From: Saprospirales bacterium
GTDB lineage: Bacteria > Bacteroidota > Bacteroidia > Chitinophagales > Saprospiraceae
Reading direction: 5' to 3'
Assembly: GCA_007695145.1 (NCBI GenBank)
Contig: REEI01000080.1
Location: 48,718 to 112,717 of the forward strand
Length of the DNA stretch: 64,000 bases
The notes beneath the pieces were generated by a model, which was not told the DNA's origin, did not search any database, and saw only the letters and a program-made list of their open reading frames with translations. The translations under genes were made by a program, and so were the position numbers. This document shows, piece after piece, positions 5,965-30,317 of the stretch (the first letter of the stretch is position 1; the number at the start of each line of letters is the position of its first letter).

Positions 5965-6152
5965 TAACTTAGCCATCGATTTGTGAAATAAAAATCCTGT
6001 AGCCCCGTATGCTGAGAGAACCGATAAACAGGCGGGTTGGCCAAATAGTGAGGTACAATAATTGTGCTTAACTGGAAAAGGAAAAATGATAGACTGAAGC
6101 CAAAATTCTAGTGATTACATTGGATTTACTTGAACAAATAAATTTGCCTAGT
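5965..6152. other. Intergenic region before the antitoxin remnant
   Basis: No ORF. The only signal is TAAATTTG at 6139-6146, an exact -7 match that stands at the right distance from the inferred first codon of the degraded antitoxin gene. Confidence 0.45.
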
Positions 6153-6432
6153 GTGCTGGTTTCAGTAATTCAAGGGGGCAACTCAAATGGGATTAGATGA
6201 AGGGAAACCCTTTTAGACAAATACCAATCACGAATAAGGTAGAACTTGTTTAGGGGATGATTGTATTGTGATCAATCCTATTGCCGAGGTCTGAAAAAAT
6301 TGGGTAAAAGCCTTTGCAGAAATGCACAAAAACGGAAGCGTCAGCTTGCTCATAGATAGTGTTTTGAAAGGTAAAATTGGGACTAATGAAGGCAGATTGT
6401 GCTCAGTACGGGAGACTGTTGTTGCCAATTGA
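6153..6432 (+). pseudogene. Degraded AbrB/MazE-type antitoxin gene
   Basis: This stretch is absent from the ORF track but reads as a broken protein gene when frames are joined. Frame one from 6153 gives VLVSVIQ, GGNSNGIR, a TGA at 6198-6200, then RETLLDKYQ. A one-base shift near 6227 gives ITNKVELV. A second shift near 6250 gives LGDDCIVINPIAEV, a TGA at 6292-6294, then KNWVKAFAEMHKNG and LLIDSVLKGKI. This order matches the SpoVT/AbrB-fold antitoxin pattern: V-x-IGNSKGIRLxKTLL-x-KYxI, DKVELxLE, then PRxxWxxAFxxMHxxGDDxLLI. Two stops and two frameshifts make it non-functional. No MazF/PemK-like toxin was seen next to it. The ORFs at 6228-6467 (-) and 6377-6589 (+) are shadows here. Confidence 0.75.
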
Positions 6433-6530
6433 GAAAAAACGCCCAAAGAAACCCACCCACCCCACATTCAAGCCTAACGCCATCAACCATCACCTATGCC
6501 ACTTGTTAGACAAGCAAACTATCAATAGAA

Positions 6531-8018: not shown

Positions 8019-8171
8019 GGTGAGTCTGTTTATAGATCGTTTTGGGATGATCTGTTCTTCATTCTTCTTCAGTGGGGAAGCCTTAAATTAATTCGACTTT
8101 GAATGCACTGAAGCATTGGACTTTTTCCCAACCAAATAAAAAATAAGCTTCATAGAAAATTTGAATTACCC

Positions 8172-8633
8172 CTATCTCTCTGGATTTTCTCTAATCTTGT
8201 GCAATAGTTTGTTCAATATCCCGGCCTCTTCTTCACTCAGGTTATAGTGCGGCTTATATACACTTTCCCAATCTCGAGTCATCGTTTCTAAAAGTCGGTT
8301 CCCTTTAGGGGTAGTTTTGAGTTGAATACTTCGGCGGTCATTGGGACAACTGTATCTGGAAATCAACCTCCTCTCTTCCAGAAAATTAGCTAATCTGGTA
8401 AGGTTGGGGTTTCTATCCATCATTCGGGCTTTGAGATCTGAAACAGAGGTTTTGTCCTTATCAAGTGCAATGGCCCACAAAAGATTGTACTGTTGAGTAG
8501 TCAAGCCATAATTTTTGAGAAAATCGCTGTAAGTTTTGAGCAGCCAGTTTCCTGTAAATATCACATTCAGCATGGCATTTTCCCTTTGATTGTCAAAGGC
8601 TGAAAGAGGATTTTCGCGCTGGATTTTATTCAT
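8172..8633 (-). CDS. MarR family transcriptional regulator
   Basis: Small winged-helix repressor-type regulator. The recognisable region is NYGLTTQQYNLLWAIALDK followed by SVSDLKARMMDRNPNLTRLANFLEERRLISR and the wing CPNDRRSIQLKTTPKGNRLL, which is the classic MarR helix-turn-helix and wing. The ORF track starts at 8699, but the first 22 residues are hydrophobic and unlike the family; MNKIQRENPLS at 8633 is a better start and gives 153 aa. No target operon lies beside it: the nearest genes are selO, convergent, and a divergent PAP2-like gene. Confidence 0.85.
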   Translation of the reverse strand: MNKIQRENPLSAFDNQRENAMLNVIFTGNWLLKTYSDFLKNYGLTTQQYNLLWAIALDKDKTSVSDLKARMMDRNPNLTRLANFLEERRLISRYSCPNDRRSIQLKTTPKGNRLLETMTRDWESVYKPHYNLSEEEAGILNKLLHKIRENPER

Positions 8634-8995
8634 AGCATTATTTTTTGAGAAACTAAAAATAAATACAACCACGCCTAAATAATGTTTTAATAAGTGCATC
8701 TAAAAACCCACTTTTTTTCCTCAACATTCAAGCATCTACCGCCAAAAGTAAATTACCATCTTAAGAAAAGATCAAAGTACATTTTGCAAAAGCTCATCCC
8801 TTCAAGCCTTTGACAAATCCATGGCACTCTTTCTCCCATGAATCCTAAAGCTTAAAAGCAAGCGGTATTTAATTGAATTCAGGTATCAAAAGGCCAACCT
8901 TCAAGTCCTCAATAAGAATTCACCATAAGCATTTATAAATCAGATAAGTAACTTTAAAATTCACCTCTTTGGAATTATTTTTTGATCTTTGAGCC
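8634..8995. other. Intergenic region between divergent MarR and PAP2-like genes
   Basis: About 360 nt without an ORF. It must hold both divergent promoters, but no clean TTTG / TAnnTTTG pair was found; TACATTTTG near 8778 and a run ending in TATTTTTTG near 8980 are imperfect matches. Confidence 0.4.
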
Positions 8996-9670
8996 ATGAA
9001 AAACCTGAACAGAGCTTTCTATCAACTGGTGAGTATAGTCTTTCACCCCTTGCTGATATTTCTGTATCTGCTGTTTATCATGTCCGCCATAAACCCTTAT
9101 GATTTCACTGCATTTCAGGGAGAAAACCGGTTTTTGCTCTACTTTCAAATCATCATAAGCAGTCTGTTATTACCTGCCATTGCTATTGTAATGATGTATA
9201 GCCTGGGCCTGGTCTCTTCGGTAGAGTTGGGCGACTCTAAAGAGAGGATGTTTCCGTTCATTGCAGCCGCAGTATTCTACCTATGGTTATTCGCCAACTT
9301 TATTTACAACCCCAATATCCCCAAAATGCTGAACGTCATACTTTTCGCTGCCATTTTGGGTTTGTTTTTTTCCATGGTGATCAACCTTTTTGTCAGGTTG
9401 AGCATTCATTGCCTGGGGATGGGGTCTCTACTGGGAGCGCTGGTTTTAATTTATTTTGACTGGATCACACTTTTCAGCAGAGATTTATTTTGGGGCGCTG
9501 AAAGCATGGTTTACTTGATAGTACTGGCCATTATTTGTGCAGGTTTGGTGGGCACGGCCCGACTTCAACTTGGAGTGCATACCATCAAAGAAGTTTATGT
9601 TGGCTATTTGGTGGGCCTGATTTGTCCCTTTTTATCTTTTTTTCTCATTGACTGGTTGTTTTATGGCTAA
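8996..9670 (+). CDS. Multi-pass membrane protein, PAP2-like
   Basis: Integral membrane protein of 224 aa with about six hydrophobic segments. The last third contains ARLQLGVHTIKEVYVGYLVG, which resembles the third PAP2 phosphatase motif (S-R-x-x-x-x-x-H-x-x-x-D). The canonical phosphatase residues are only partly present, so catalytic activity is uncertain. It could be a lipid phosphatase relative of the envelope or a non-catalytic homologue. The 3' end overlaps the nadD start by 8 nt, which indicates translational coupling. Confidence 0.6.
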   Translation: MKNLNRAFYQLVSIVFHPLLIFLYLLFIMSAINPYDFTAFQGENRFLLYFQIIISSLLLPAIAIVMMYSLGLVSSVELGDSKERMFPFIAAAVFYLWLFANFIYNPNIPKMLNVILFAAILGLFFSMVINLFVRLSIHCLGMGSLLGALVLIYFDWITLFSRDLFWGAESMVYLIVLAIICAGLVGTARLQLGVHTIKEVYVGYLVGLICPFLSFFLIDWLFYG

Positions 9671-10244
9671 AAAAACTGGATTATTTTTTGGGTCGTTCAA
9701 TCCGATACATATTGGACATTTGATTATTGCAAATTTCATGGTGACTAAAACCGATCTGGAAGAGATTTGGCTGGTTGTATCTCCCCATAACCCTTTCAAG
9801 AAAAAAAGCAGTCTTGCTCCTGAAAGGGACCGTCAACACCTGGTTGAACTGGCCGTGAATGACAATGCATTGCTCAGATGCTCAGACATAGAGTTTTATC
9901 TACCCCAACCATCCTACACCATCGATACACTTGTTCATCTGAGAGAGAAATTCCCTACAAAATCCTTCAGCCTGATAATGGGTGCAGATAACCTCAGACA
10001 CATACACAAATGGAAAAATGCTGAAATACTGGTAGAGAATTATGAAATTTACCTCTACAACCGCCCCGGATACGATGTTGAAATGCTCCAGCTACCACCT
10101 AAAAAGCTCCGTGTTTTTGAATCGCCCCAAATTGCTATTTCCTCCACCTACATTAGAGAATGTCTGAAAAATGGCCACTCCGCCCGCTACTTACTGCCAG
10201 AGCCGGTTTATAATTATCTCCTGGAGCACAACCTTTATAAGTAA
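9663..10244 (+). CDS. nadD: Nicotinate-nucleotide adenylyltransferase
   Basis: Adenylates nicotinate mononucleotide to form deamido-NAD in NAD biosynthesis. It shows the nucleotidyltransferase signature GLFFGSFNPIHIGHL with HIGH at residues 16-19, the NadD block VVSPHNPFKKK, FSLIMGADNLRHIHKWKN, and the C-terminal ISSTYIREC (ISSTxIR motif). The ORF track starts at 9648, but ATG 9663 (MAKKTGLFFG) puts the first beta strand in its usual place and gives 193 aa, the normal size. It overlaps the upstream membrane gene by 8 nt. Confidence 0.95.
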   Translation: MAKKTGLFFGSFNPIHIGHLIIANFMVTKTDLEEIWLVVSPHNPFKKKSSLAPERDRQHLVELAVNDNALLRCSDIEFYLPQPSYTIDTLVHLREKFPTKSFSLIMGADNLRHIHKWKNAEILVENYEIYLYNRPGYDVEMLQLPPKKLRVFESPQIAISSTYIRECLKNGHSARYLLPEPVYNYLLEHNLYK

Positions 10245-10332
10245 ATGTTCACTTATGCCCACATCATGCCAATTTTATCAACTATCGATAAAGAATACCG
10301 GTTGAAAATTCAATAAGCCACAAAATAGAAAG

Positions 10333-10968
10333 ATGAAATTTATTGACGAAAGACTTGAAAACTACTGCAGAGATATGAGTTCTGCTCCTGCAGAATACCT
10401 CAGCGAATTGGATAGGGAAACACATTTGAGAGTGCTTTCTCCGGTAATGCTTTCTGGGCATTTACAGGGCAGGTTCCTATCCATGATCAGCAAGCTTATC
10501 TCACCCGGTAAAGTGCTGGAGATAGGCACTTACACAGGCTATTCAGCACTTTGTATGGCCGAGGGCCTGAAAGAGGGAGGAGAATTACACACCATAGAGG
10601 TTAATGATGAATTGGAGCCCTTCATCAGGCAATTTTGGGATAAATCCCCTTACAGTCATCTATTGCACCTCCACATTGGCGATGCTTCAAAGGTTATTGC
10701 AGAACTGGAAGGAGACTTTGACCTTGTTTTTATCGATGCAGGAAAAAAGGACTACCCACTTTACTTTGATCTAATAATTGATAAGGTCTCTTCAGGTGGG
10801 GTCATTTTGGCGGATAATGTGCTCTGGAGTGGCAAAGTACTGGAGGAAAAAGTAGATGAAGAGACGGAGGCTTTGGTTTCCTTTAGCAAGAAAGTGTTGG
10901 AAGATATAAGGGTAGAGGTGGTTGTGCTTCCCATCCGAGATGGTATATCCGTGATCAGGAAGTTGTGA
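10333..10968 (+). CDS. SAM-dependent O-methyltransferase (family 3, CCoAOMT-like)
   Basis: Cytosolic class I methyltransferase of 211 aa. The SAM-binding motif VLEIGTYTGYSALCMAE begins at residue 61, HTIEVNDELE holds the acidic ribose contact, and DLVFIDAGKKDYPLYFD followed by GGVILADNVLWSGKV contains the metal-binding Asp, Asp and Asn of the caffeoyl-CoA O-methyltransferase family. The acceptor is unknown; bacterial members methylate small catechols or have unknown substrates. It follows nadD after 88 nt in the same direction. Confidence 0.88.
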   Translation: MKFIDERLENYCRDMSSAPAEYLSELDRETHLRVLSPVMLSGHLQGRFLSMISKLISPGKVLEIGTYTGYSALCMAEGLKEGGELHTIEVNDELEPFIRQFWDKSPYSHLLHLHIGDASKVIAELEGDFDLVFIDAGKKDYPLYFDLIIDKVSSGGVILADNVLWSGKVLEEKVDEETEALVSFSKKVLEDIRVEVVVLPIRDGISVIRKL

Positions 10969-10982
10969 GCAATTCAGTTACC

Positions 10983-11012
10983 TTTGTTATTGCCATCTTT
11001 TATTTACATTTG
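10983..11012 (+). promoter_or_regulatory. Bacteroidota promoter TTTG-N18-TACATTTG
   Basis: TTTG at 10983-10986 and TACATTTG at 11005-11012 are separated by 18 nt, a full match to the sigma-A promoter pattern known for Bacteroides and Flavobacterium. The ATG of the next gene is 20 nt further on. Confidence 0.75.
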
Positions 11013-11031
11013 GCTTTTACAAGTATGACCT

Positions 11032-11988
11032 ATGTCCTTTCAACTGATTCCCGGCACTAGAATTGACAAAGAGCGTTGGCAACAATTGATTGAGTCTTCA
11101 CAAAATGACTCTATATATGGAATGCCGGATTATCTCGACATTCTCTGTAATGCTAACTGGGCTGCAGTGATCAGTAAGGACTACCAATTGGGAATGGTTG
11201 TGTTTCCAACTTCAAAATGGGGTATGAAATACACTTCACATCCCCCCTTTTATCAGGTGAGTGGAGTATTTTCTAATGTCCAACTGACAGAATCCCAATT
11301 TTCAGAGCTTATGCTTTTTCTTAAAAGGCGATTCCACTTCTTTTCAGTATCCTTTTCCCAAAGACCCGCTCTTAAGCTCGGCTCTTTGCAGGCCATTAAG
11401 ATGGACAATTATATTCTGCACCTCAACAAGCCCTATGAGTCTTTAAAAGAGCAGTATTCTTCAACTTTGAAACGGAAAATTCGGAAGTGCATGGAAGGCA
11501 GAATCAGGGGTACTGATGAGATTGTAGATGTAAGTGCATTTGTTGAGTTTGTAAAAGCCCATTTCCCGCCCGTCAATAAGGGTATGCTGAGTGGATTCAC
11601 AATGGAGTCATTCATTAAGAATACCATTGATAGAGGCTTAGCAGGCTTGATTGTTGCCGAAAACGAGCAATGTGAATTGATGGCAGGACTTTTGTATCTA
11701 AACTACAAAAACCGCATTTATCTCATCTTGCCGGTCTCCAATGAATTGGGTCGACAATCCAATGCAATGCACTTTTTAATCAATTACCTCATCAGGGAGA
11801 AGGCCGGTGGAGATACCATAATAGATTTTGAGGGTTCGGTCCTCCCGGGTGTAGCCAGGTTCTACAAAAGTTTTGGACCTGAACTTCAGCACTATTGGAA
11901 CATTCGAAAACCCTTGGTTTCTGATGGATTTGAAAATGTCTTCCGTAAAGCGAGAAAATTGTTGGAGGGAGGGTCAAATTTGTGGTAG
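11032..11988 (+). CDS. GNAT/FemAB-like acyltransferase, function unknown
   Basis: A 318-residue soluble protein. The N-terminal half (YGMPDYLDILCNANWAAVIS and TSKWGMKYTSHPPFYQVSG) and the C-terminal half (FIKNTIDRGLAGLIVAENE, then LYLNYKNRIYLILPVSNE and IIDFEGSVLPGVARFYKSFG) follow the double GNAT layout of FemAB/LPG-type proteins. The closing GVARFYKSFG is the segment that in such proteins contributes to the acceptor site. A substrate cannot be named. It has its own strong promoter and is followed by a glycosyltransferase, so an envelope or lipid-linked role is possible but inferred. Confidence 0.6.
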   Translation: MSFQLIPGTRIDKERWQQLIESSQNDSIYGMPDYLDILCNANWAAVISKDYQLGMVVFPTSKWGMKYTSHPPFYQVSGVFSNVQLTESQFSELMLFLKRRFHFFSVSFSQRPALKLGSLQAIKMDNYILHLNKPYESLKEQYSSTLKRKIRKCMEGRIRGTDEIVDVSAFVEFVKAHFPPVNKGMLSGFTMESFIKNTIDRGLAGLIVAENEQCELMAGLLYLNYKNRIYLILPVSNELGRQSNAMHFLINYLIREKAGGDTIIDFEGSVLPGVARFYKSFGPELQHYWNIRKPLVSDGFENVFRKARKLLEGGSNLW

Positions 11989-12030
11989 AAGACAGTTGAA
12001 ATACCCCAATAATGTGGAAATTTGCATTTG

Positions 12031-13173
12031 ATGCGGTTGGCGATTATTTCAGATGTGGTGCATTACAAATCCGGAAACAGTTATCTGGCCAATCCTCCCT
12101 ATGTCAAAGAAATGGAAATTTGGGCGAAGAAAGCAGATGAAGTCCTTTTATTGACTCTACTTTCTAAGGACAGGCCATCCGACCACTTTTTATCATCTTA
12201 TAAACACCCCAGGATTTCTCATCGTCCTATTCCGCCATTTGGTATCAATAAGGCTGCAAATTTCTTTAGAATACTGTTTTTTATGCCAATCTTGTTGTGG
12301 AAGACCTACAGTGTAATGAGGCAGGCCAACCACATCCACATCCACTGTCCGGGCTATGTGAGTTTGGTTGCAAGCCTAGCTCAAATATTGTTCCCCTCAA
12401 AACCAAAAACCATTAAGTACGATGGCAACTGGTCTTCCAGTACAACCCAGCCTTGCTCCCATCGGCTCCAAAAATGGATAATGAGATCAAGTTTTTTGAC
12501 AAAGAATGCCAAGGTTTTGGTTTATGGGGACTTTGATGAATCCAACTGCAATGTGATCCCTTTCTTTAATCCTATCTATTCCCTGCGGGAAAAGATCAAC
12601 TGCCCAATTAGACAAACTGAGGGGCGATTGAGGTTTCTCTTTGCTGGAGAACTCACTGATATAAAAAATCCGCTTCTGGCTTGTAAGGTAGTCTATCTAC
12701 TCAACGAAAGTGGTATGGATTGTGAGTTGAACCTCTTTGGAGAAGGGCCGCTCCAAGCTGAAATTGAAAGCTTTATCCAGAGCCATGGATTGAGTGAATC
12801 TATTAATATAATGCGGACTTCAAATAAAAATACACTGATCGAGGCCTATAGTAGCAGCCACTTTCTTTTATCACTGAGCAGGTCTGAAGATTGGCCAAAA
12901 GTGGTGGCTGAAGCTATGTGGTGGGGCTGCCTACCTGTGGCAATTCCGGTGAGCTGTATTCCCCAAATGCTGGGATATGGAGAGAGGGGGCTCCTGGTGT
13001 ATCCCTACCCGGAGAGTGTTATTGCCAACATTAGAGCTTGTCTGAACAATCCTGCTACCTATCTGGAGATGTGTAGGAAAGCCATGAAGTGGAGCAGAAA
13101 TCACACCCTTGAAAAGTATGAATTGGAGGTGCACAAGTTGTTGGGTTCCTTTGAAGTTTACCAGAAAAAATGA
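12031..13173 (+). CDS. Glycosyltransferase, GT-B fold (GT1/GT4-like)
   Basis: Predicted retaining GT-B glycosyltransferase for surface glycans. The C-terminal domain shows RLRFLFAGELTDIKNPLL, then LNLFGEGPLQAEIESF and the donor-binding EX7E-type motif SEDWPKVVAEAMWWGCLPVA, ending IPQMLGYGERGLLV. The N-terminal acceptor domain begins MRLAIISDVVHYKSG. The ORF track starts at 12022 with a TTG; the ATG at 12031 is preferred and gives 381 aa. Donor and acceptor are unknown. It may act with the sugar-nucleotide genes elsewhere in the window. Confidence 0.85.
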   Translation: MRLAIISDVVHYKSGNSYLANPPYVKEMEIWAKKADEVLLLTLLSKDRPSDHFLSSYKHPRISHRPIPPFGINKAANFFRILFFMPILLWKTYSVMRQANHIHIHCPGYVSLVASLAQILFPSKPKTIKYDGNWSSSTTQPCSHRLQKWIMRSSFLTKNAKVLVYGDFDESNCNVIPFFNPIYSLREKINCPIRQTEGRLRFLFAGELTDIKNPLLACKVVYLLNESGMDCELNLFGEGPLQAEIESFIQSHGLSESINIMRTSNKNTLIEAYSSSHFLLSLSRSEDWPKVVAEAMWWGCLPVAIPVSCIPQMLGYGERGLLVYPYPESVIANIRACLNNPATYLEMCRKAMKWSRNHTLEKYELEVHKLLGSFEVYQKK

Positions 13174-14117: not shown

Positions 14118-15899
14118 TCAGAAAAGGCTTAAGTAACCAAAGTGAATTTTTGCCCTTCTGAAGTCTGCAGGGTTGTTGCTCTGTCGTCCAACTGCTGCTG
14201 ACAGACTGAAAATACCAGCCGCAGTATCGAATGTAATACCTGCACCAAAACCCATGGGCCAGTCGCTGAAGCCCTGACCTGCAATACTGTTGTTTTCAAA
14301 GTAAGCAGCATCCCAAAACGCAAAAACATAGGATCGCCTACCGGTTAACAAACGGAATTCCAATGTACTCACTGCATAGGTCGATGCAAAAATGCTCTCC
14401 TCATCAAAGCCCCTCAACAAGCGATTACCACCAATTCGGTAGAGTTCATTGGTAAGTATTTCTTCATTGTTGTAAATATGGGCTGACTTTAACCCAAGCC
14501 GGAGGGTCATCAAATTTGCCAATCTGAAGAACCTGTTTACCGACAAGCGGAAATTAATAACCGTAGTTTTAAGACTTAAATCGTCATAGAGCTGACTGAA
14601 ATCTACTTCTTCATCACTGAGGTCCAGTATGCGATCGTTCTTTTCTATGGTTCTCTGTCCAATGGATACATCTGTTTGAAAAGTCCAGCCTGTTGTAGGG
14701 TTCAATGCAAAATCCAGTCTTGTCAATCGATAGGCCAACCCAAGCCCGGTTCTGCTAAAGTCCAGCCTGTCGGGAAGCATACCTGAGGTTTTTATGCTTC
14801 CCTCATCAATACTAAGTAGTCTCGATCTTCTGTTGTCCAAAAAGAGCCGAACGCTACTGGTGCCGGTAAACAAATATTCTATACCTAAATGAAATGAAAG
14901 ATCTAAAAAAAGGGAATCCTGCCTTGAAAATTCCGCTCGTGTATCCAATCCAAAGGGCATATCTAGCAGATAGGGATAGGTAAATGCAAGCTCCAACTCC
15001 TGAGTTTGAGGCCGCAGCCTTTCAAAATCTATGAATATTCTTTCGCCCAGCCCCAGTTGATTGTAAAATTCACCTGTAATATTACCTGTAATGATTAACT
15101 TTCTATCCAGTTCATCTCTTGGTAGGAAGCCCAACACAAAATCCAGTCTGCTGGCATTTACTCTTCCCAATTCAAGTTGAATAATAGCGCGATCTTCAAT
15201 GAAACGTATGGTAGGGTCTGAAAGCAGTTCGATAAACGGTATTTCTTCCAGCCTGTTTTTGAGCGCTCTTACCTTTCTCATATCAAAGGGGCTCCCCGGC
15301 TTGACATCGAGAAATGAGGCCAGATAATAATCAGCTATATTTGCATCGCCCTGGATATCAACTCCATCAAAAAAAATCAGTGGACCTCTATCCAATATGA
15401 GATTGGCCCTTATTCCTTCACCAAGGATTTCAATGCTGTCCAAACGAATGGAGGCAAAAGGATACCCTCTGTTTTCGGCCACTGTGACCAATGATGAAAA
15501 TACGGTAACCAGGTCTTCACTTGATACAGCATCTCCCTGCAGCACTTCACCTCTGAGCCCGGCTGAACTTTTCCAACGTTCGGAAATCCCATCTGTATTT
15601 AATCTGGCCCACCTATAGCGCGGACCTAGAAAATAATAAACCTTCCAAATTGAATCATTGCGATGAATTGCATCAGCTGAGGCGGCGAGATAACCCTCCT
15701 GACGGCGTTCATTCAGCCAATCTCTGATGAGCTGAAGGGATTCAGCTTCTCCCATTGCCTTCTCTGGAAATTTGTCCCGCCAATCTTCTTCATCTACCTC
15801 TACCCACCATATTTCAATTTCTTGTTGACAAGATAAGGTAGTAGCCATAAAGCTCAAATATCCAAATAGCAGTATAACCGTAAAATAGTAGCGATTCAT
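14118..15899 (-). CDS. BamA/TamA-like outer membrane protein (POTRA plus beta-barrel)
   Basis: Outer-membrane protein of the Omp85 superfamily, 593 aa from ATG 15899. MNRYYFTVILLFGYLSFMATTLS is a signal peptide; the cysteine after it does not fit a lipobox well. Residues to about 270 resemble POTRA modules (FPFASIRLDSIEILGEGI, then FFDGVDIQGDANIADYYL and KPGSPFDMRKV). The rest alternates like barrel strands and contains GGNRLLRGFDEES, the conserved RGF loop motif, with a terminal aromatic SLF. It is shorter than BamA, so it is more likely a TamA-like or lineage-specific Omp85 protein. It reads alone on the minus strand. The ORF track start at 15917 is 6 codons longer. Confidence 0.82.
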   Translation of the reverse strand: MNRYYFTVILLFGYLSFMATTLSCQQEIEIWWVEVDEEDWRDKFPEKAMGEAESLQLIRDWLNERRQEGYLAASADAIHRNDSIWKVYYFLGPRYRWARLNTDGISERWKSSAGLRGEVLQGDAVSSEDLVTVFSSLVTVAENRGYPFASIRLDSIEILGEGIRANLILDRGPLIFFDGVDIQGDANIADYYLASFLDVKPGSPFDMRKVRALKNRLEEIPFIELLSDPTIRFIEDRAIIQLELGRVNASRLDFVLGFLPRDELDRKLIITGNITGEFYNQLGLGERIFIDFERLRPQTQELELAFTYPYLLDMPFGLDTRAEFSRQDSLFLDLSFHLGIEYLFTGTSSVRLFLDNRRSRLLSIDEGSIKTSGMLPDRLDFSRTGLGLAYRLTRLDFALNPTTGWTFQTDVSIGQRTIEKNDRILDLSDEEVDFSQLYDDLSLKTTVINFRLSVNRFFRLANLMTLRLGLKSAHIYNNEEILTNELYRIGGNRLLRGFDEESIFASTYAVSTLEFRLLTGRRSYVFAFWDAAYFENNSIAGQGFSDWPMGFGAGITFDTAAGIFSLSAAVGRQSNNPADFRRAKIHFGYLSLF

Positions 15900-16104
15900 T
15901 GGAAATTTTCCGATCAACTAATTAACGAAAGGCCCATTCAATAATTTTAGCTTAACTTTTACACCCTAATTCAAGAGGAGTCGAAGTACATTTGGACATA
16001 GAAAAATAACCGCAATATCAAACTATTTACAATAGAATGCGAAGCTCTCTGAACCTATAAAAGAAAGCTGATGTTTAAATCTGAACACAAAAAGAATACT
16101 TTCG

Positions 16105-20033: not shown

Positions 20034-23000
20034 ATGTTTAGACTTTTTACAATTTTTTTAATGTTTACCTTTCTTGCGGTCAATGTCTTACAGTCCCAAT
20101 CTTACGATACTCCCTGTGAGGCAAATGACAATCCGACTAATTTCGGGACCGGAGAAAGTTCAGTAAATCTGAATGGAAACATCGAAGAGGTGACCCCCTT
20201 TATTACCGATCTTTCCGGAGCCAACGTTCAAAATTTTGGAATCACTGACGCAGATAGTGCGCTTTTCTACAAATTAAATCTCGATGCTCAGACCTCTTTT
20301 TTGAGAATCAGCTGGGAGGGCGGCACTGTCCCCGAATTATGGGTGGGTCTTATAGGGTTTGAAGAACTCTGTCCTGCTGCTACTGAATACGGCGAATTTG
20401 TCTACCAGAATTTGGATGACGAAGAATTGCTTTCAGACGACATTCAGGGCGGGGAAGTGATCTTTGAACTCTGCCGTTTGGATGTGGATGAAGGTGATTT
20501 TGACAATCTGTTTTTGTGGGTGGCCAGTTCAGAAGCCGGCACCTTCCAAATAGAGGTTACTCAGCACATCCGGCCGGTTAACGACGGCTGTGAATCCACT
20601 CCCATAAACCTTGGGACTTTGCAACACGGAGATGACCTGGAAGAAGACTTCAGTAATGTCTGGGCCTGTCGTCAGAATTTTCAACCGGGATCAGCTGCTT
20701 GTGCACTCGAATTTAACGATGGAGCTGCAGTTTGGTTTGAGTTTACTACGGGCACTGAAGTGGGCGAGATCAATGTGTTGATCGAAAATCCCGATGAAGT
20801 ACCGGTGGATGTTGCTATTATAGAAAATGAGTCCGGCGATTGCGAGAGTTTTACCCTCGCGAGACGCGGCTGCGAGAATGGTGAGGACGATGAGGAGATA
20901 TTATTGGAACACATAGCTGTAAAGCCCAATACTACCTACTTGATTATTGTAAATACCGACCCAGAAGACTGGAGTGAGAATTTCACCATCACCGTATCAG
21001 CCTGCGATCCACCGGATAATAACCTAATTTGTGATGCAACTGCTCTTAATTTTCCCTCTCTTGGAGACTACAATCCCGACAATGCCATTAACTTTCCGGG
21101 TGGAATAGGTTCAGTGGTGGAGGGAACTACAGAATGTGCTTACGCTTTCTACAACAATGATCCCACTGCTGAAAACTCGTGGATTGACTTCAATTGCGGT
21201 CATGCAGAGGTTGAGAGAGCTGTATTCTATAAGTTGAATGTGGATGATTACGCGACTAAACTCTATGTTGAATTTGAAAATTCCAATCTGGCAGGGAATC
21301 TGGCCGTGCAGGTATTTTTGGTTCAGGCGCTGCCTGGTGATTGTAGTGATTTAATTTTTGATGAGGGTTTGTTCGTGCCACCTGCTGAATGGGGTAGTTG
21401 CAACTTTTCAGGTGGTGATGTACTGGAGATCGATCTTTGTGAAGTCGATAATGAAGACTATGGGAACCTCTATCTGTGGGTGGCCTCTGCAATTGACGAT
21501 GAGGGGGAGTTTGAATTGAGTTTTAGGCAAGAGATTGCTCCTTACAATGACCTCTGTGAAGACGAGACCAGTGGAGATCGCGGTGCCGGCGATTTTGGGA
21601 CAGTTAATTGGAACTTTCAGAATTGTTTTGATGGTGAAACTACAAGAGGAGCATGTCCTATTCCCGGTTCATTCGTGGGACTGCCAGCATGCTTTGACTT
21701 CTTTGAGGATAATCCCACAGTATGGTATGAATTCACTACCGGGTCCAATGTTGAAGCAGTAGATATAGAAATAAATTTTCCAGGAGTAGATTTTTCTGTT
21801 GCTATATTTCAATTAGATGAGCCCTGTGGAACTCAACTTACTGCTCCCGGAGACTGGGAGGATTACTGTTCACAGGAAAGCGGATCAGTTGAGTTCGAGC
21901 AACTGCGAGTTAAGTCCAATACTACCTATTATATATTGGTGAGCACCTCTGAAGACGATTGGGGTGAGTTTGATATTTGTTTGGAGGTGTGTGAAGCCCC
22001 GGAAAACTACAGTATTTGCGAGGCAGAGCAGGTGGATTTTCCCGCTCCCGGCTACAATCCTAACAACCCTGCAGCAAGTACATCCGGAACCACTGAGTGC
22101 GCATATGGATTTTGGAACGATGCAGAATTAACAGATCTCATTGAGTTTGATTGTGGAGACGAGTACGAGCATGCAGTTTTATACAAGTTGAATATTAATG
22201 AGTTTGCTTCGAAGATTGAGATAGTCATTGATCCAGGAACAGCTGGGACTATGTCAGCACATGTGTTTTTCTGGGAAGGCAATGAAGATTGTGACGACAG
22301 AGGTTTTGACATTATAAACTTCGTAAATCTTGAACTAGGGGTATGTGATTTTACAGGTGAAACCAGCATAGAAATTGATTTTTGTCCACTTTGGGCAGAT
22401 CCAATCTGGGGAGATTTTGAGTTTCATGAATATATGTACTTGTGGGTGGCTACCGATTTGGAGAATCAGGGTAATTTCAACATAGATATCTTTCAGGAGA
22501 TTGCACCCTATAATGACGATTGTGAAGATGCAGGAAACAGAGGGCCAGGAGACCTGGGGACTATAGAGGTTGGCGATGAGGTATGTGAGTTGATGGAGAC
22601 CACCAGAGGAGCCTGTCCAATATTGTATAGTGGACCCAGCGCTTGCCTTGAGGGATTTCCAGAGGAGGACCAGGCAGGTGTTTGGTTTAGATTTGAGACT
22701 GGAGAGAATGTTGAACTTTTGACAATAGAGGTGGATCATTCCAATAATGGCCCGGTGCGAATGGCGATGTTTGAGCTTCCCGACGGATGCGGAGAAACTG
22801 GCTTTTTCCCTCCTAATCAGGATGTTGAAGAATATTGTGTGGAAGCAACCAATGGAGTGGATAGTATATGGAATATACTTGTTCAGGAAAACACTGAATA
22901 TTTTATTTTGGTCAGCACTCCTATTGACGATTGGGGCGACTTCAGTATTTGTGTGCGCAATTGTGAACCACCTGAAAATGATCGTCTCTGTGACGTATTC

Positions 23001-26000
23001 GAATCCAGCAATTCTGAAATTTGGGTTTATCCTGGAGAGGAAAGTATTGATAACGGTGTTTATAACCGAAATGAGCTTGAGCTGGAGGGAACAACCCGCT
23101 GCGCAAGTAATTTCTTCCTGGATTTTGATCTGAACTTCGAAGATTTTGGTTGTGGGCCAGATTTTGAAAGCGCTGTCTTTTACCATATACGGGCAAATCC
23201 TAATGCAACAGAAATAACTGTTACGGGAAGGGCTCTTGGGGACCTAAATACCCTTGCCTTTGGATTCTTTTCAATAGGGGAGGAAGCTTGTGACGGAGAC
23301 CGAAACTTCATGCCTGAAATATGGTTAGACCCGGAATTCGATGAAATGATCGATTGTAATGCTGCTTTTGATGGAGAAATAGTCTTTGATTTATGCGGTC
23401 TCACCGATGAAGAAAAGGAAAACATTTTCCTCTGGGTAGCGACCCCTCGTTTTGAACAAGGAGACTTTGAGATAGAACTCAGCCAGAAAATTGGTCCTGT
23501 AAATGACGATTGTGAAGAGCCTTATGATTTTGGAGTCATTGAAAGTGATGAGGACGAAATCATTTGCTTAGAGGAAATCAATGCTCCAAGCACCAACTTA
23601 TGGGGTTGTGCAGAGACCTATGACCCCTCTCTTGTCGACAATGAGTTGCAGTATGAATTTGAGTGTTTTGAAGATCCCATAGAGCCCAATATATCAGGTG
23701 TTTGGTATCGATTTGAAACAGATGATGAAGCCGGTCGTCTGGATATGGATTTCTTCCACTACAGCGAGGGAGATGAAGTTAGGTTTGTATTGTTTACTCC
23801 TGATCCTGATGCAGGGGAGGAGTGTGAGGCATGGGTAATTATTATGTGTGAAGAGACCGAGGATGGAGAGATTTTCTTCGAGAATGAGGCCATAGAACCC
23901 AATACGGTCTATTACATGCTTTTCTACTCGGACAAGGAAATTGCAGATGATTTTGATCTATGCATCAATGTAAAGCCACCAAGAGAGTGCCTGGGTATTG
24001 CACCTTATTATTACAACCATACAGAGATTATTTGTGGGTTGAGTCAACTAGAAGGTTTTTGTTTATTTATGGGACCCCCGTTTCCACCTTCTTTTATCAA
24101 TTGGCCGGGATGTAATCCTCCTTTTGGAGTTGCCTTTCACAATCCGCAGTGGTTTACCTTCGTGGCAGGAGAGGCCAATCAATTGAGTATTGACGTAGAA
24201 ATTACCGAGTGTATTGGACAGGGAGTTCAGATTGCCATGTACGAATTAGACTGCAATGTAGAGTTTGATCCCTCTGAACAATCGCCGGGTATTCAACCGA
24301 CTGCTGATATGCTGGTCTCTGACTGTATACTTACAGCCACTCCTCAAATAGGGATTGTTAACTTTACGGTGAATAATGTGGTACCCGGGACTGTTTATGG
24401 AATTGTTGTTGATGGATGGGCCAATGCGGTATGCAAGGTCGAGGTATTGAATGTGTTAGTGGGAGGTGATCCACCACAAATTGATGACGACCTGCTTGGT
24501 GAGCCTGAGTTTGACAATGAAGGATATGGGTTCCAACCAGGAGATACCATTTGTGCAGGGGCAACAGATGTTTTATTTGCTCTGGCTCAGGAAGTAGAGG
24601 GAGCTTGTACCTATCGTTGGACCTTGAATGGTGAAGAATTAACAGATTTAGATGACCCTCTTGCCATTACACTTGACTTTCCGGATCCCGGAGTTTATGA
24701 GGTTTGCGTATCAGCTACCAATTTGTGTGAGTTTACTGCGCCTAAGTGTATTGAAGTGGTAGTAGCCCCGCTCGATCCCGACATTCAATTTGACACCATC
24801 TGTAGAAGGCAGGATTATTTATGGGAAGAGGATGTGTTTGGCATCATTGATCTGCTGGGTCCTTTTGATGACTCCGGCGATTATGAGTTTGAAGATCTTA
24901 TTATAAGTCCAACCGGTTGCCAAATTGAGGCCTTTTTGAACTTGCATGTCATTCCCGATAATTTTGATAACCCAACAGAATTATTTGAAGTGATTTGCTG
25001 GGACGACCCAGATCCAGTTTATGTGCCTTTTGAAGATCACCCTCAGGCTCAGTTTTTTAATTTCACCGGAATATACGGTGAGGACAGAGATCTTTTTATC
25101 ACTCAAGAGGGTTCTCCAGGGAATGAATTTGAGTGTGACAGCTTTTTCATCTTAGAGCTCGTTAATTTGGATATTTTATTCTTCTTTGATGAGCCATTCT
25201 GTCTCGATAGCCTTATTTATATAGGCGGTAGTGATTTCGTATTCCCGGGAGGACTGGAGGATTTTGGATATGATGCCGAAATCGAGATATACTATGAACT
25301 AATTAGAGAGAGCGATGACTCCATTATTATCTCAGGAACCAGTATCGGGCTGACCGATTTATTTGGAGGGATTTTTGTCGAACTTCCGGTTTCAGAGTTT
25401 TTTGGAGAGGTTCAGGTGTTCCGTGTCGATTTTTACCTACAGTATCAGGGACTACCCGAAGAGCCTTGTGCGAGAAGTTTTTCTATTGAGGTCGATCCGG
25501 CAGAATTTGTTCCTCCGGTACCTGAAGTGGATGCGCCAGATATTGCCTGTATTGGCGATGAAGTTGAACTGGAGGTAACCAATCATCGCTTCATTCCTGA
25601 CGAAACTTATGTTTGGTCTTTTAGCCAGCAACCAGATACCATTATCGGTGATCCAGAGGGTCATCAACTGACTGCAGTGTTTAGTGAAGCAGGAATCGTT
25701 GAAATTTGTGTTAATTCTACCAATCGCTGTGCAGATAGCGATCCTCATTGTTTTGAAATCGACATTAATGAGCCACCAGTAACCGATGCCGGTCCCGATG
25801 GCATTTCTTGCTCCTTTGAGCATACCTTTGAAGGAGGTGGTGATGACGGATTTTGGACCATGGTTTCAAGCCCCGTAGGAGCGACTGCAACCTTTGCTGA
25901 CAATAATGATCCACAGACTACAGTGACGGTTTCACTTAAGGGGAGTTACCAGTTTATGTGGACCGAAGTCATTGGTGATTTGGTCGGTTGTAGAGGCAGA

Positions 26001-29000
26001 GACACCATGAGTGTTCAGTTTCTCGAAATACCGGAACTATTGAATTTATCATATGAATGCGATTCGTTGGGACTTGAATATGTAGCTACTTTTGAAATCT
26101 TAGGTGAAACAGGTCCTTTTATTGTAATTAATGTGGCAACAGGAGAGGAATTCGGAACGGTTGACAGCAACATATTCACTTCTCCACCAATTCCAGATCT
26201 TCAAGCGGTAGAGGTGGCAATTATAGATGGAAACGGATGTGAATCTGAAGTGATACTGCTCAGAGAAAGGTGTGATTGTCCCACAGCAGTAGGTCAGTTG
26301 GAACCAACTGCATTAAACTTGTGTGATGGTGAGTGCATAGAGACGTTGGATTTTTATGACGATGCTACCCAGGTGTTTGTGCCGGGCCAGGATACGGTTT
26401 TGTTTTTCCTTCAAACTACCAACTCTTTTTCTGTTAATGAAGATGATTGGATTGATGTAAATAATCATGGGGTATTTTGCAATGAAGATTTGGATGTGGA
26501 TATTGGAACCACCTATTATGTGTATGTAGCAGTTGGACCCATAGATACGCTGACGGGATTTATCCAATTGTTTGAAGACCCCAATGATATTGATAATTGT
26601 ACAAGAACTGCTCGTAAGCCGGTAACATGGAGAGGGCAACCTGAAGCAATGGCTCTGCCTGACACCATTTGTGGGGAAGTGCTGCCGGCCTTGACCGCTA
26701 TCACGTCTATAGGTGCCGGTTCATGGTCGCAGGTGAGCGGCCCCGGAGAATTGACCTTTGATAATGTAGCCGATCCCAATAGTGGAGTTGAGGCAGATCT
26801 CTGTGGCACCTATACCATTCAATGGCGCGAACAGAACTTCCAGTGTGTTGATTCAATTCAGGTGGATATACAGCTAAATTGCATTCCCCAATTGGGTAAT
26901 GTTGATTTCCAGTGTGACAATGAGGATATTTCTTATTTCCTTCAATTCCAAATAGTTTCAGGAACTGCTCCATTTACGCTGGTAGAGCCTGAAGAATATG
27001 CTGATTTTCTGGATGGAAATGTTTTCACGCATCCTGAAATGCCAAACAGCGGTGAAGAATTGGACATCTTTTTCTTTGTGGATGCCAATGGCTGTGAACT
27101 GGAGGTTGTAATCGATGTAAATTGCGACTGTCAGCCATTTCCGGGTATAATGGATGATGAGCAAATCAATGTATGTATCACTCAGACCCAGGTGACAGCC
27201 GGGCCATTTCAGGAAGATCCCGAAGGGGAACCCGGAGATATAGGAACTTACGTTCTACACACCCTTCCCGGAGATCAGTTGGGAACCATCTTGGGGATCA
27301 ACGATAATGGGGTGTTTAACTTTAATGCTGCCGAAGGTATGGTTTGTGGAACCATCTATTATATCTCTTATGTAGTGGGCCCTCCGGATAATGATGGCAA
27401 TGTTGATTTCGAAAATGGTTGCACCAGAGTTGCCCCCGGTCAACCGGTTCTGTGGTATTGTGAGCCCACTGCCGATGCAGGAGATGATGTGACCGTTTGT
27501 GGTTCTGATCTTGCGCAATTAAATGGTAGTTCTACCTTTGGTACAGGCCAGTGGAGTGGAGGCGCCGGAACTCTGACTGATCCTGACAATCCGAATACGA
27601 CTTACCTACCGGATGATTCTGAATTTGCCGGTACTGTGACGCTTACTTACACCACATTTGCCGACGATGGAATTTGTCCGAACGTTTCAGACCAGATGGT
27701 GATAACAGTAGAACGGCCACGAGTGGCTGACGCCGGCCCTGATCAGGTGTTCTGTGAGATTGAAGATGTGCAGTTGAATGCTGATTCAGAAGGTGTATCC
27801 GGTATGTGGTCAGGGGGTGCAGGATCCTTTAATGACCCCAATCTGAACAATGCAGTATATACACCGGATGCATCAGAGCAGGGAACAACTATCACATTGA
27901 CCTGGACCACAGATGCCGGAAATGAATGTCCCGCGGTAAGTGATGAGATGACTATTCAGATTGTAGATGAATTGGTATCGGATCCGGGTGAAGATCGAAT
28001 TGCTTGCTTCCTGTCAACCCAATTGGAGGCATCACTTCCCGGTAATCTCAACGGGCAGTGGTCTGGTGATGCAGGAGTTTCATTCAGCGATGTCAATGAT
28101 CCCAATGCGGTTGTAACGGTACCTTCACTTGGCACCTTCTGCTTTGAGTGGACGATTTCCATAGGAGATTGTGAAGATACCGAACAGGTGTGCATCACCT
28201 TTGTGGATGCACCTGAAGCGACCTGGGAACTTGAATGTAATGACATAGCAACAGAGTATAGAGTGATCTTTACCATTTCAGGTGGCGATCAGTCCACTTA
28301 TACGGTGAATGGAACCACAGTAGGTGGTGGTGTTGAATTTGTCTCAGATTGGATAACATCAGGAGATCAAGTTACTTTCACCATTGACGATGCCAATGGT
28401 TGTGATCCCTTTGTAGTTCAGATAGAACACGAGTGCGATTGCCTCACCGAAGTGGGCGAAATGTCCGATGAAGATGCTGTTACTCTATGTGAGGATCAAT
28501 CATTTGATTTCAGTGTTTTCTATGATTCCAGCACTGAATTTCTGGATCCAAACGATATTCGTGTATACCTGCTACACGATGGAAGTGTCACCGATGTTGG
28601 AAACATTATTTCACAAAACACTTCAGGTCAGTTTGGATTCCAGGCTGGAATGAATCTGGAACAAAGCTACTTTGTAACAGTAGCCGTTGGTGATGAACTT
28701 GGCTCTACCGGTACGATTGATTTCAGTGATGCTTGTTTACTATACTCTACCGGAGTTGAGGTAATTTGGTACGGATATCCCGATCCGGGCATTGAACTGC
28801 CGGCTATCCTCACCTGCGCTGTTACGGAAGTTACCATAACCGCAGTCACGCCGGATGCTGATCACATATCTTATCAATGGAGTGGTCCTGGAATTGTATC
28901 CGGGCAAAATGAAAGAACCGTAACAGTTGGAGCTGTCGGAACTTACACTTTGATAATTACAGATACTCGTGCAGGTTGTGAATCTACCGAATCCGTTGTT

Positions 29001-30317
29001 GTGACTGGTGATTTTGAAGAGCCTGATGTAATTATTGAGGTACCTGATGTACTTACTTGTGCAGTAACTGAAGTCACCGTTGATGGAAGTGGGTCAAGTA
29101 CCGGAAATATGACGTATGAGTGGACCGGGCCCGGAATAGTTTCAGGAGCTAGTACCAACACTATTGTTGTTTCCGAAATCGGAAATTATACTTTGACAGT
29201 AATTGACAATGAAAACGGATGTTCAGCTTCTGCTTCTATGTTGGTAGAGGAGGATGTTGACTTCCCTGCAGCCAATGCTTCAGTTGATGCAGAGCTGGAT
29301 TGCAGTACCGATCAGGTAACGCTTTCAGGAGCCGGAAGCAGTCAGGGTGCTGACTTTGTTTACAGTTGGTCTGTGGTGCCCGGCACCGGAGGAAATCTGG
29401 TAGGGGCAACAGATGGTCAAAACGCCACTGCTAATCAGGCAGGATTATATGTCATAGAAGTATTAAACACTGGGAATGAATGTCGCTCCACTGACACCGT
29501 GGAAGTAATATTGATCGATGATGTAGTTACGGATTTTGCTCTCGAAATAGATGGTATAAATTGCTTTGGTGACAGAGATGGTATTATCACTATTGCTGAA
29601 GTAATAGGTGGCACCGCCCCCTATGCCTACTCTTTTGATGGCGGAGCTACATTTGGGACCAATAATCAAGTGACCGGATTATCACCAGGGACATATACCA
29701 TTGTAGTGAGAGATGATAGGGGTTGTCTGCACAATCAAACGGTTACTCTTGTCGAGCCCCCATTGCTTGAGGTGGACTTGGGTCCAACAATAGTAGTTAC
29801 TCAAGGTGAATCTGCTGTTTTGGTGGCTACAGTTAATGTGGACGAGGAGAGCATAGTTGAGTGGAACTGGGATCCCTTATTGGATGCAACTTGTCCCAAT
29901 TGTCCGGAACAGGTCTTTACTCCGGAGCGTGAAACCTTTGTTCAAATCGAAGTAGTGGATTCGTCCGGCTGTGTAGCTAACGCAAGTGTTCAAGTTCTGG
30001 TTAGGGTTATCAGAGAGGTTTACATACCCAATGCCTTTAGTCCCAACATAGATGGAATCAATGATTTTATTGGTGTTTACTTTGATCCTCAAAGGATTAA
30101 TGAAATTAAGGAATTCAGAATCTTTGACCGCTGGGGCGAACAGGTGTTCATGCGTGAAAATATTCCGGTGTATACGGAATTGAATGAAACCAATGCCTGG
30201 GATGGAAACTTCAATGGAGAGCCCATGCAGCCTGGTATATTTATCTACCATATTGTGATTGAGTTTGCCGACGGCGTTGAGGAAACCTTCCAGGGTGACT
30301 TTATGCTGATCCGGTAA
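20034..30317 (+). CDS. Giant T9SS-secreted repeat protein (3427 aa) with CHU_C-type C-terminal sorting domain
   Basis: Secreted or cell-surface protein. MFRLFTIFLMFTFLAVNVLQSQS is a signal peptide; ATG 20034 is preferred over the TTG at 20028. Four tandem modules of about 300-335 aa begin near residues 24, 326, 654 and 978, each with VFYKLN, LWVA...GxFEL, (A/G)PxNDxCE, VWxxF(E/T)TG, NTxYxxLVST and a closing C-x-PPEN; a shorter fifth unit starts near 1314. PKD-like domains follow (about 1476-1585 and 1830-1913), three units opening with CDC (about 2081, 2365, 2802), DAGPD-type Ig-like domains (about 2480-2720), three more Ig-like repeats (about 2917-3163) and one SprB repeat (about 3165-3244). 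The last 100 residues, starting YIPNAFSPNIDGINDF and ending DFMLIR, are the gliding-type T9SS tail. It is very rich in Asp, Glu and Cys. An adhesin or surface-filament role is inferred. Confidence 0.9.
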   Translation: MFRLFTIFLMFTFLAVNVLQSQSYDTPCEANDNPTNFGTGESSVNLNGNIEEVTPFITDLSGANVQNFGITDADSALFYKLNLDAQTSFLRISWEGGTVPELWVGLIGFEELCPAATEYGEFVYQNLDDEELLSDDIQGGEVIFELCRLDVDEGDFDNLFLWVASSEAGTFQIEVTQHIRPVNDGCESTPINLGTLQHGDDLEEDFSNVWACRQNFQPGSAACALEFNDGAAVWFEFTTGTEVGEINVLIENPDEVPVDVAIIENESGDCESFTLARRGCENGEDDEEILLEHIAVKPNTTYLIIVNTDPEDWSENFTITVSACDPPDNNLICDATALNFPSLGDYNPDNAINFPGGIGSVVEGTTECAYAFYNNDPTAENSWIDFNCGHAEVERAVFYKLNVDDYATKLYVEFENSNLAGNLAVQVFLVQALPGDCSDLIFDEGLFVPPAEWGSCNFSGGDVLEIDLCEVDNEDYGNLYLWVASAIDDEGEFELSFRQEIAPYNDLCEDETSGDRGAGDFGTVNWNFQNCFDGETTRGACPIPGSFVGLPACFDFFEDNPTVWYEFTTGSNVEAVDIEINFPGVDFSVAIFQLDEPCGTQLTAPGDWEDYCSQESGSVEFEQLRVKSNTTYYILVSTSEDDWGEFDICLEVCEAPENYSICEAEQVDFPAPGYNPNNPAASTSGTTECAYGFWNDAELTDLIEFDCGDEYEHAVLYKLNINEFASKIEIVIDPGTAGTMSAHVFFWEGNEDCDDRGFDIINFVNLELGVCDFTGETSIEIDFCPLWADPIWGDFEFHEYMYLWVATDLENQGNFNIDIFQEIAPYNDDCEDAGNRGPGDLGTIEVGDEVCELMETTRGACPILYSGPSACLEGFPEEDQAGVWFRFETGENVELLTIEVDHSNNGPVRMAMFELPDGCGETGFFPPNQDVEEYCVEATNGVDSIWNILVQENTEYFILVSTPIDDWGDFSICVRNCEPPENDRLCDVFESSNSEIWVYPGEESIDNGVYNRNELELEGTTRCASNFFLDFDLNFEDFGCGPDFESAVFYHIRANPNATEITVTGRALGDLNTLAFGFFSIGEEACDGDRNFMPEIWLDPEFDEMIDCNAAFDGEIVFDLCGLTDEEKENIFLWVATPRFEQGDFEIELSQKIGPVNDDCEEPYDFGVIESDEDEIICLEEINAPSTNLWGCAETYDPSLVDNELQYEFECFEDPIEPNISGVWYRFETDDEAGRLDMDFFHYSEGDEVRFVLFTPDPDAGEECEAWVIIMCEETEDGEIFFENEAIEPNTVYYMLFYSDKEIADDFDLCINVKPPRECLGIAPYYYNHTEIICGLSQLEGFCLFMGPPFPPSFINWPGCNPPFGVAFHNPQWFTFVAGEANQLSIDVEITECIGQGVQIAMYELDCNVEFDPSEQSPGIQPTADMLVSDCILTATPQIGIVNFTVNNVVPGTVYGIVVDGWANAVCKVEVLNVLVGGDPPQIDDDLLGEPEFDNEGYGFQPGDTICAGATDVLFALAQEVEGACTYRWTLNGEELTDLDDPLAITLDFPDPGVYEVCVSATNLCEFTAPKCIEVVVAPLDPDIQFDTICRRQDYLWEEDVFGIIDLLGPFDDSGDYEFEDLIISPTGCQIEAFLNLHVIPDNFDNPTELFEVICWDDPDPVYVPFEDHPQAQFFNFTGIYGEDRDLFITQEGSPGNEFECDSFFILELVNLDILFFFDEPFCLDSLIYIGGSDFVFPGGLEDFGYDAEIEIYYELIRESDDSIIISGTSIGLTDLFGGIFVELPVSEFFGEVQVFRVDFYLQYQGLPEEPCARSFSIEVDPAEFVPPVPEVDAPDIACIGDEVELEVTNHRFIPDETYVWSFSQQPDTIIGDPEGHQLTAVFSEAGIVEICVNSTNRCADSDPHCFEIDINEPPVTDAGPDGISCSFEHTFEGGGDDGFWTMVSSPVGATATFADNNDPQTTVTVSLKGSYQFMWTEVIGDLVGCRGRDTMSVQFLEIPELLNLSYECDSLGLEYVATFEILGETGPFIVINVATGEEFGTVDSNIFTSPPIPDLQAVEVAIIDGNGCESEVILLRERCDCPTAVGQLEPTALNLCDGECIETLDFYDDATQVFVPGQDTVLFFLQTTNSFSVNEDDWIDVNNHGVFCNEDLDVDIGTTYYVYVAVGPIDTLTGFIQLFEDPNDIDNCTRTARKPVTWRGQPEAMALPDTICGEVLPALTAITSIGAGSWSQVSGPGELTFDNVADPNSGVEADLCGTYTIQWREQNFQCVDSIQVDIQLNCIPQLGNVDFQCDNEDISYFLQFQIVSGTAPFTLVEPEEYADFLDGNVFTHPEMPNSGEELDIFFFVDANGCELEVVIDVNCDCQPFPGIMDDEQINVCITQTQVTAGPFQEDPEGEPGDIGTYVLHTLPGDQLGTILGINDNGVFNFNAAEGMVCGTIYYISYVVGPPDNDGNVDFENGCTRVAPGQPVLWYCEPTADAGDDVTVCGSDLAQLNGSSTFGTGQWSGGAGTLTDPDNPNTTYLPDDSEFAGTVTLTYTTFADDGICPNVSDQMVITVERPRVADAGPDQVFCEIEDVQLNADSEGVSGMWSGGAGSFNDPNLNNAVYTPDASEQGTTITLTWTTDAGNECPAVSDEMTIQIVDELVSDPGEDRIACFLSTQLEASLPGNLNGQWSGDAGVSFSDVNDPNAVVTVPSLGTFCFEWTISIGDCEDTEQVCITFVDAPEATWELECNDIATEYRVIFTISGGDQSTYTVNGTTVGGGVEFVSDWITSGDQVTFTIDDANGCDPFVVQIEHECDCLTEVGEMSDEDAVTLCEDQSFDFSVFYDSSTEFLDPNDIRVYLLHDGSVTDVGNIISQNTSGQFGFQAGMNLEQSYFVTVAVGDELGSTGTIDFSDACLLYSTGVEVIWYGYPDPGIELPAILTCAVTEVTITAVTPDADHISYQWSGPGIVSGQNERTVTVGAVGTYTLIITDTRAGCESTESVVVTGDFEEPDVIIEVPDVLTCAVTEVTVDGSGSSTGNMTYEWTGPGIVSGASTNTIVVSEIGNYTLTVIDNENGCSASASMLVEEDVDFPAANASVDAELDCSTDQVTLSGAGSSQGADFVYSWSVVPGTGGNLVGATDGQNATANQAGLYVIEVLNTGNECRSTDTVEVILIDDVVTDFALEIDGINCFGDRDGIITIAEVIGGTAPYAYSFDGGATFGTNNQVTGLSPGTYTIVVRDDRGCLHNQTVTLVEPPLLEVDLGPTIVVTQGESAVLVATVNVDEESIVEWNWDPLLDATCPNCPEQVFTPERETFVQIEVVDSSGCVANASVQVLVRVIREVYIPNAFSPNIDGINDFIGVYFDPQRINEIKEFRIFDRWGEQVFMRENIPVYTELNETNAWDGNFNGEPMQPGIFIYHIVIEFADGVEETFQGDFMLIR

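Follow-up and report, generated by a model that had tools for sequence, protein, structure and literature searches.

Among the closest described systems to the protein analysed here are the giant T9SS type B adhesins of the SprB kind, with which it has in common a Sec signal, giant size, PKD/Ig-like and SprB-like repeats and a type B domain. Type B cargo is often, though not always, encoded beside a PorP/SprF gene. PPC-like domains, another point of comparison, are not all ligand-binding, and many occur in secreted peptidases. Type B substrates bind PorP-like proteins at the surface, their presumed anchors (PMC9143113); they are adhesins, either established or predicted, some of which move while others are static (PMC12618676). 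The collagen-binding domains of ColG form a subclass of PPC domains (PMC4356367). Looking through the literature for T9SS proteins with PPC domains returned no papers. Set against SprB-type adhesins, our giant protein is distinguished by an N-terminal PPC-like array of paired domains, here called A and B, and by the lack of a linked PorP/SprF gene. Its parts are mostly of known type, and its A domain type is seen in a single soda-lake genus.

Repeat architecture of the giant gene

The window, the whole 64,000-nucleotide stretch of DNA that was analysed, contains a 10.3-kb gene for a T9SS type B protein as a single stop-free frame of 3427 codons (20034–30317, + strand) with an ATG at 20034. A Sec signal peptide, MFRLFTIFLMFTFLAVNVLQSQS (20034–20102), was assigned by eye from the sequence. 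The first-pass annotation had described four tandem modules with a period of about 325 residues, and a score-based autocorrelation run on residues 1–1330 agreed, giving maxima at lags 318–340 with harmonics at 650–654 and 972–991. At lag 330 the real protein yielded 50 matching windows versus at most 4 at any lag in 50 same-composition shuffles; the repeat is therefore real. The motifs named in that annotation likewise occur once per module in the giant protein: a VFYKLN-type motif at residues 77, 397, 715 and 1048, LWVA at 161, 481, 803 and 1133, NDxCE at 183, 505, 827 and 1157, and VWxxF at 233, 563, 883 and 1223. CxPPEN lies at residues 324, 653 and 977 and is missing ahead of copy 1, where the start of the module is shorter than in the other copies.

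Because self-BLAST of the whole protein gave zero off-diagonal pairs, we compared the domains one by one, and pairwise BLAST then recovered A2–A3 at E 7e-37, A2–A4 at E 3e-20 and B2–B3 at E 1e-34. The resulting layout is A1B1-A2B2-A3B3-A4B4 followed by a lone fifth B domain, nine beta-sandwich-type domains in all. A1 (residues 25–182, 20106–20579) was delimited from the A-half alignment, and the next seven domains from alignments and profiles: B1 (183–323, 20580–21002), A2 (324–504, 21003–21545), B2 (505–652, 21546–21989), A3 (653–826, 21990–22511), B3 (827–976, 22512–22961), A4 (977–1156, 22962–23501) and B4 (1157–1315, 23502–23978), all on the + strand. The four AB pairs had thus been described correctly, but B5 (residues 1316–1475, 23979–24458), which has no A partner, had been overlooked; it is matched by B2 in BLAST at E 1e-5 and by the window-B profile at E 1e-39, a profile that itself contains B5. 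In the alignments, four cysteines are invariant, or almost so, among B domains (C4, C49, C94 and C108 in B2), and A domains have two conserved ones (C10 and C146 in A2), and this conservation makes disulfides likely in both.

The remainder of the protein, also on the + strand, is a tail of further repeats. A PKD-like domain at residues 1522–1563 (24597–24722) matches PF00801 at E 0.0019, under the Pfam cut-off. Self-comparison revealed a composite unit present about three times across residues 1909–2917, with copies at 1909–2220 (25758–26693), 2229–2516 (26718–27581) and 2641–2917 (27954–28784); residues 1939–2070 match 2229–2355 at E 1e-17. Next come PKD_6 and K319L-like PKD domains (residues 2927–3159, 28812–29510; PF19408 E 1.3e-10, PF22352 E 1.8e-6) and a single stretch of SprB-like repeat (residues 3175–3206, 29556–29651; PF13573 E 2.1e-5), which at 24.5 bits falls slightly under the cut-off of 28. 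The C-terminus was previously called a CHU_C-type T9SS domain, and rightly so: residues 3331–3427 (30024–30314) exceed the cut-offs of both PF13585 (45.5 bits versus 27) and TIGR04131 (38.7 bits versus 35).

Family ties of the A and B halves

We examined how the two halves relate to each other and to described families. Compared directly by BLAST, A and B match weakly, with a best E of 0.009. A model built only from the window's B domains matches the A half of a relative (L018) in register at E 3.5e-4, a non-circular comparison, and hhalign of 49 B against 14 A sequences aligns them over nearly their full length (probability 94.8, E 5e-8). The A and B halves are homologous, as the first-pass annotation had supposed, with the qualification that the relation is visible at profile level only. 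Evidence from iterated profiles was set aside, since A and B rows had been mixed in them; this is why the separate profile–profile comparison and the non-circular model were used.

That annotation could assign the module to no named family, and for direct matches this stands: no curated model exceeds its cut-off on the window's AB modules, PF04151 (PPC) has no match to the giant gene up to E 5, nor to that gene at E 1 when the whole genome was searched, and PF23759 (GBD_T9SS_assoc) has none in the giant gene even at E 10. Among 14 AB modules, one matches PF04151, at E 0.053. The A half matches no Pfam family. The B half, however, is linked to named families through its relatives, so the module is not wholly unassignable. 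Wider B relatives score above the curated thresholds for PF23759 and for PF04151 (a single wide B member in the latter case), and at E ≤0.1 the two models are found in 8 and 4 of the 49 B members, respectively. With 2luw, a PPC domain of solved structure, the wide B profile reaches E 4.5e-4, which indicates profile homology to PPC; against a microbial collagenase domain the B profile gives E 0.32, a chance-level value. Length and core are similar to those of these families: B relatives that have in common with B the ND-x-C start, VW(Y/F)xF, NTTYY and a C-terminal F-x-(I/L)-C-(I/L/V) pass both PF23759 and PF04151. Judged from these profiles, the B half is PPC-like by linkage through relatives and the A half is a diverged B homologue, neither of them filed in Pfam families; curated Pfam models overlook both in the giant gene.

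Structure prediction points to the same fold class. A model of A2B2, like that of A2 alone built from a shallow alignment (14 rows), has a mean pLDDT of 83.3 and a pTM of 0.79 and contains two mostly-beta domains; A2 alone (pLDDT 81.7) gives weak jelly-roll matches in Foldseek (top E 7e-4, TM 0.42). For A2B2, Foldseek returned tandem beta-sandwich proteins, among the best of them the ColG s3a–s3b pair (5iku, E 1.6e-7), at a low TM of 0.24. With TM-scores this low, it is the E-values and profiles that carry the fold assignment. The earlier suggestion of a likeness to PPC-type beta-sandwiches is upheld. As predicted, A2B2 resembles ColG s3a–s3b in consisting of two tandem beta-sandwiches of the PPC class; identity is about 12%, and the likeness gives no grounds for assuming collagen binding or the ColG-type calcium site, which occurs in some PPC domains. 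Foldseek matches to botulinum haemagglutinin, CUB and SIDT1 indicate no more than a common fold type. Matches to DUF6265, Sipho_tail and S-adenosylmethionine synthase were dismissed as weak and partial, and PDB sequence matches to the AB and A profiles were at chance level.

These folds raise the question of whether the beta-sandwiches are carbohydrate-binding modules that collect polysaccharide for uptake. Some Foldseek matches of A2 and A2B2 are indeed carbohydrate-binding modules or surface glycan-binding proteins, and the linked family PF23759 is labelled galactose-binding-domain-like. The fold is generic, however, the matches are weak and the PF23759 label was given by fold, and the near neighbours that were scanned include no glycosidase or SusC/D-type cluster. 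We consider glycan or polymer scavenging unlikely.

Distribution and history of the array

No relatives emerged when the genome collection was first scanned, and a repeat with a conserved alignment found three. Their records are Saprospiraceae or Saprospirales metagenome bins. The third, DLM2.Bin58, presumably originates from a soda-lake mat. The other two are CSSed bins, a label used in papers on Cock Soda Lake sediment (PMC6704655, PMC6146748). At the level of profiles, AB is found in 50 of 199 Saprospiraceae genomes at E 1e-10, with matches outside the genus covering essentially the B half. The A profile, at E 1e-6, is confined to six of the eight genomes of this Saprospiraceae genus, with none among about 390 others, and at the same threshold the B profile occurs in 35 of 393 genomes across the phylum, scattered among Bacteroidota T9SS proteins. 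The previously unnamed module can thereby be placed, with B in a PPC-like family of many Bacteroidota T9SS proteins and A in a diverged branch of one genus. The A half may have arisen within the genus as a duplicated and diverged B-type domain. A bolder version, in which A is a new genus-restricted family that gained its own ligand in haloalkaline mats and sediments, so that the two halves of AB would bind as one unit with no counterpart among characterised PPC domains, seems to us rather improbable.

In domain trees, A1 groups with the A1 of other species, A2 behaves likewise, B1 groups with B1, A4 and B3 cluster with copies from genome G007, and B4 with the B4 of a paralogue. These position-specific clades across genes and species imply that the array predates the species split and has not been freshly homogenised; as read from these trees, it is long conserved. 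A paralogue, C123:7658, matches the window gene in A1 (72% DNA identity) and after that only from B4 on (79%); the changeover is confined to 18 bases of the A/B linker. By this alignment, the paralogue is a shorter version without B1 to A4, or else the window gene is its expansion; either way it would be a clear case of giant surface proteins growing and shrinking by modules through recombination at domain linkers. As the assembly is a draft in 144 contigs and genes related to this one stop at contig edges inside repeats, repeat numbers in the relatives are lower bounds.

A rival reading makes the protein a structural surface coat or sheath, in which AB arrays would polymerise, laterally or end to end, to form a layer outside the cell that the tail anchors. 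A large, repetitive protein with several paralogues and with domains rich in Cys, four of them in each B being invariant or almost so, would suit this role, but module number (one versus four) and tails differ among paralogues, which is unusual for a lattice subunit, and no S-layer or sheath family was matched. We regard a coat as very unlikely.

Several observations were made on related loci. In three related genomes (L082, L083 and L084), the gene that begins with A1B1 sits downstream of one for an aminotransferase-like protein. The window has a different arrangement, so synteny at this locus does not extend through the genus. The adjacent T9SS genes at L011:3595–7311 and L011:7589 onwards (contig C123) have 1080 bases in common, 100% identical, at the 3' end, which suggests that one was recently duplicated or converted by the other, or that the assembly is at fault here. 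The neighbouring giant secreted genes at L013:1251–5225 and 5597–12757 (contig C138) each have three N-terminal B-type domains and no A, and look like tandem duplicates with differing tails. L011:3595–7311 and L085:938–1744 encode secreted proteins with T9SS tails and GAPGEG-x-C-x-x-CHGG at the start, a motif resembling a haem-binding CxxCH site.

Secretion, a probable adhesive arm and acidity

We then considered how the protein may be exported and what it may do. The genome encodes SprA (2345 bits), 11 PorP/SprF-type genes (12 matches) and 38 CHU_C domains above cut-off. The window's contig, C123, has no PorP/SprF match, and no such gene lies beside the giant gene, whose near neighbours are mostly housekeeping genes and hence offer no operon clue to function.

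The reading we favour, with somewhat better than even confidence, is an adhesin-like arm, comparable to SprB, that is secreted and anchored at the surface and that originated by domain duplication and linker recombination. The protein would enter the periplasm by the Sec route, cross the outer membrane through the T9SS by means of its type B C-terminal domain, and be anchored at the surface, probably via a PorP/SprF-type protein encoded elsewhere in the genome. A stalk of about 1850 residues, made of PKD/Ig-like and other beta repeats, would then keep the N-terminal string of nine PPC-like beta-sandwiches (ABABABAB+B) at a distance from the cell body, and there many weak contacts might attach them to surfaces, polymers or other cells; array length would shift by recombination at A/B linkers. 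Supporting this are features computed here (the anatomy, the type B signal, the SprA and PorP/SprF genes, the B–PPC link and the A–B homology), together with the conserved array, and from them we infer the surface location, the anchoring, the tail as stalk and the binding of a ligand. It counts against an adhesive arm that no ligand, binding site or catalytic motif was found for the giant protein, that no PorP/SprF gene adjoins its gene and that ligand binding is not universal among PPC-like domains. Of the earlier proposal of a long adhesin or sheath protein, the adhesin would be the likeliest role, and the sheath is left without support.

An adhesin could also be a counterpart of SprB in the full sense, moved along the cell by gliding machinery. 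The type B signal, SprB-like repeat, giant size and SprA in the genome all accord with this; yet some type B proteins are static (PMC12618676), the SprB-repeat match falls under its cut-off, the best GldJ match in the genome does too, which leaves the gliding genes uncertain, and the surroundings of the giant gene lack an SprF-type gene. A gliding adhesin thus seems quite improbable, and the adhesin-like arm remains our preferred reading.

The giant protein is strongly acidic, with a pI of 4.05, 18.9% Asp+Glu and 0.5% Lys, which had been taken to suggest calcium- or salt-dependent folding. That suggestion was not borne out. The other giant secreted proteins examined in the genome also have a pI of 4.05, with 0.2–0.8% Lys, versus a median pI of 6.5 for the other proteins of the window; since every giant secreted protein examined is equally acidic and has less than 1% Lys, acidity is no evidence for calcium or salt binding by the module. 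B-bearing proteins of other genera are lysine-poor as well, and Asp+Glu is higher in this genus (median 16–18% versus 12.6%). By composition, the acidity agrees with a trend across the secretome that may stem from haloalkaline life, rather than with a module-specific calcium site.

Two further genes in the window encode envelope or secreted proteins: an Omp85-superfamily outer-membrane protein with a POTRA-like domain (14118–15917, − strand), four genes before the giant gene, and an M43-type metallopeptidase carrying a type A sorting tail of the T9SS (54630–55949; Pfam E 4e-17 and 1e-8).
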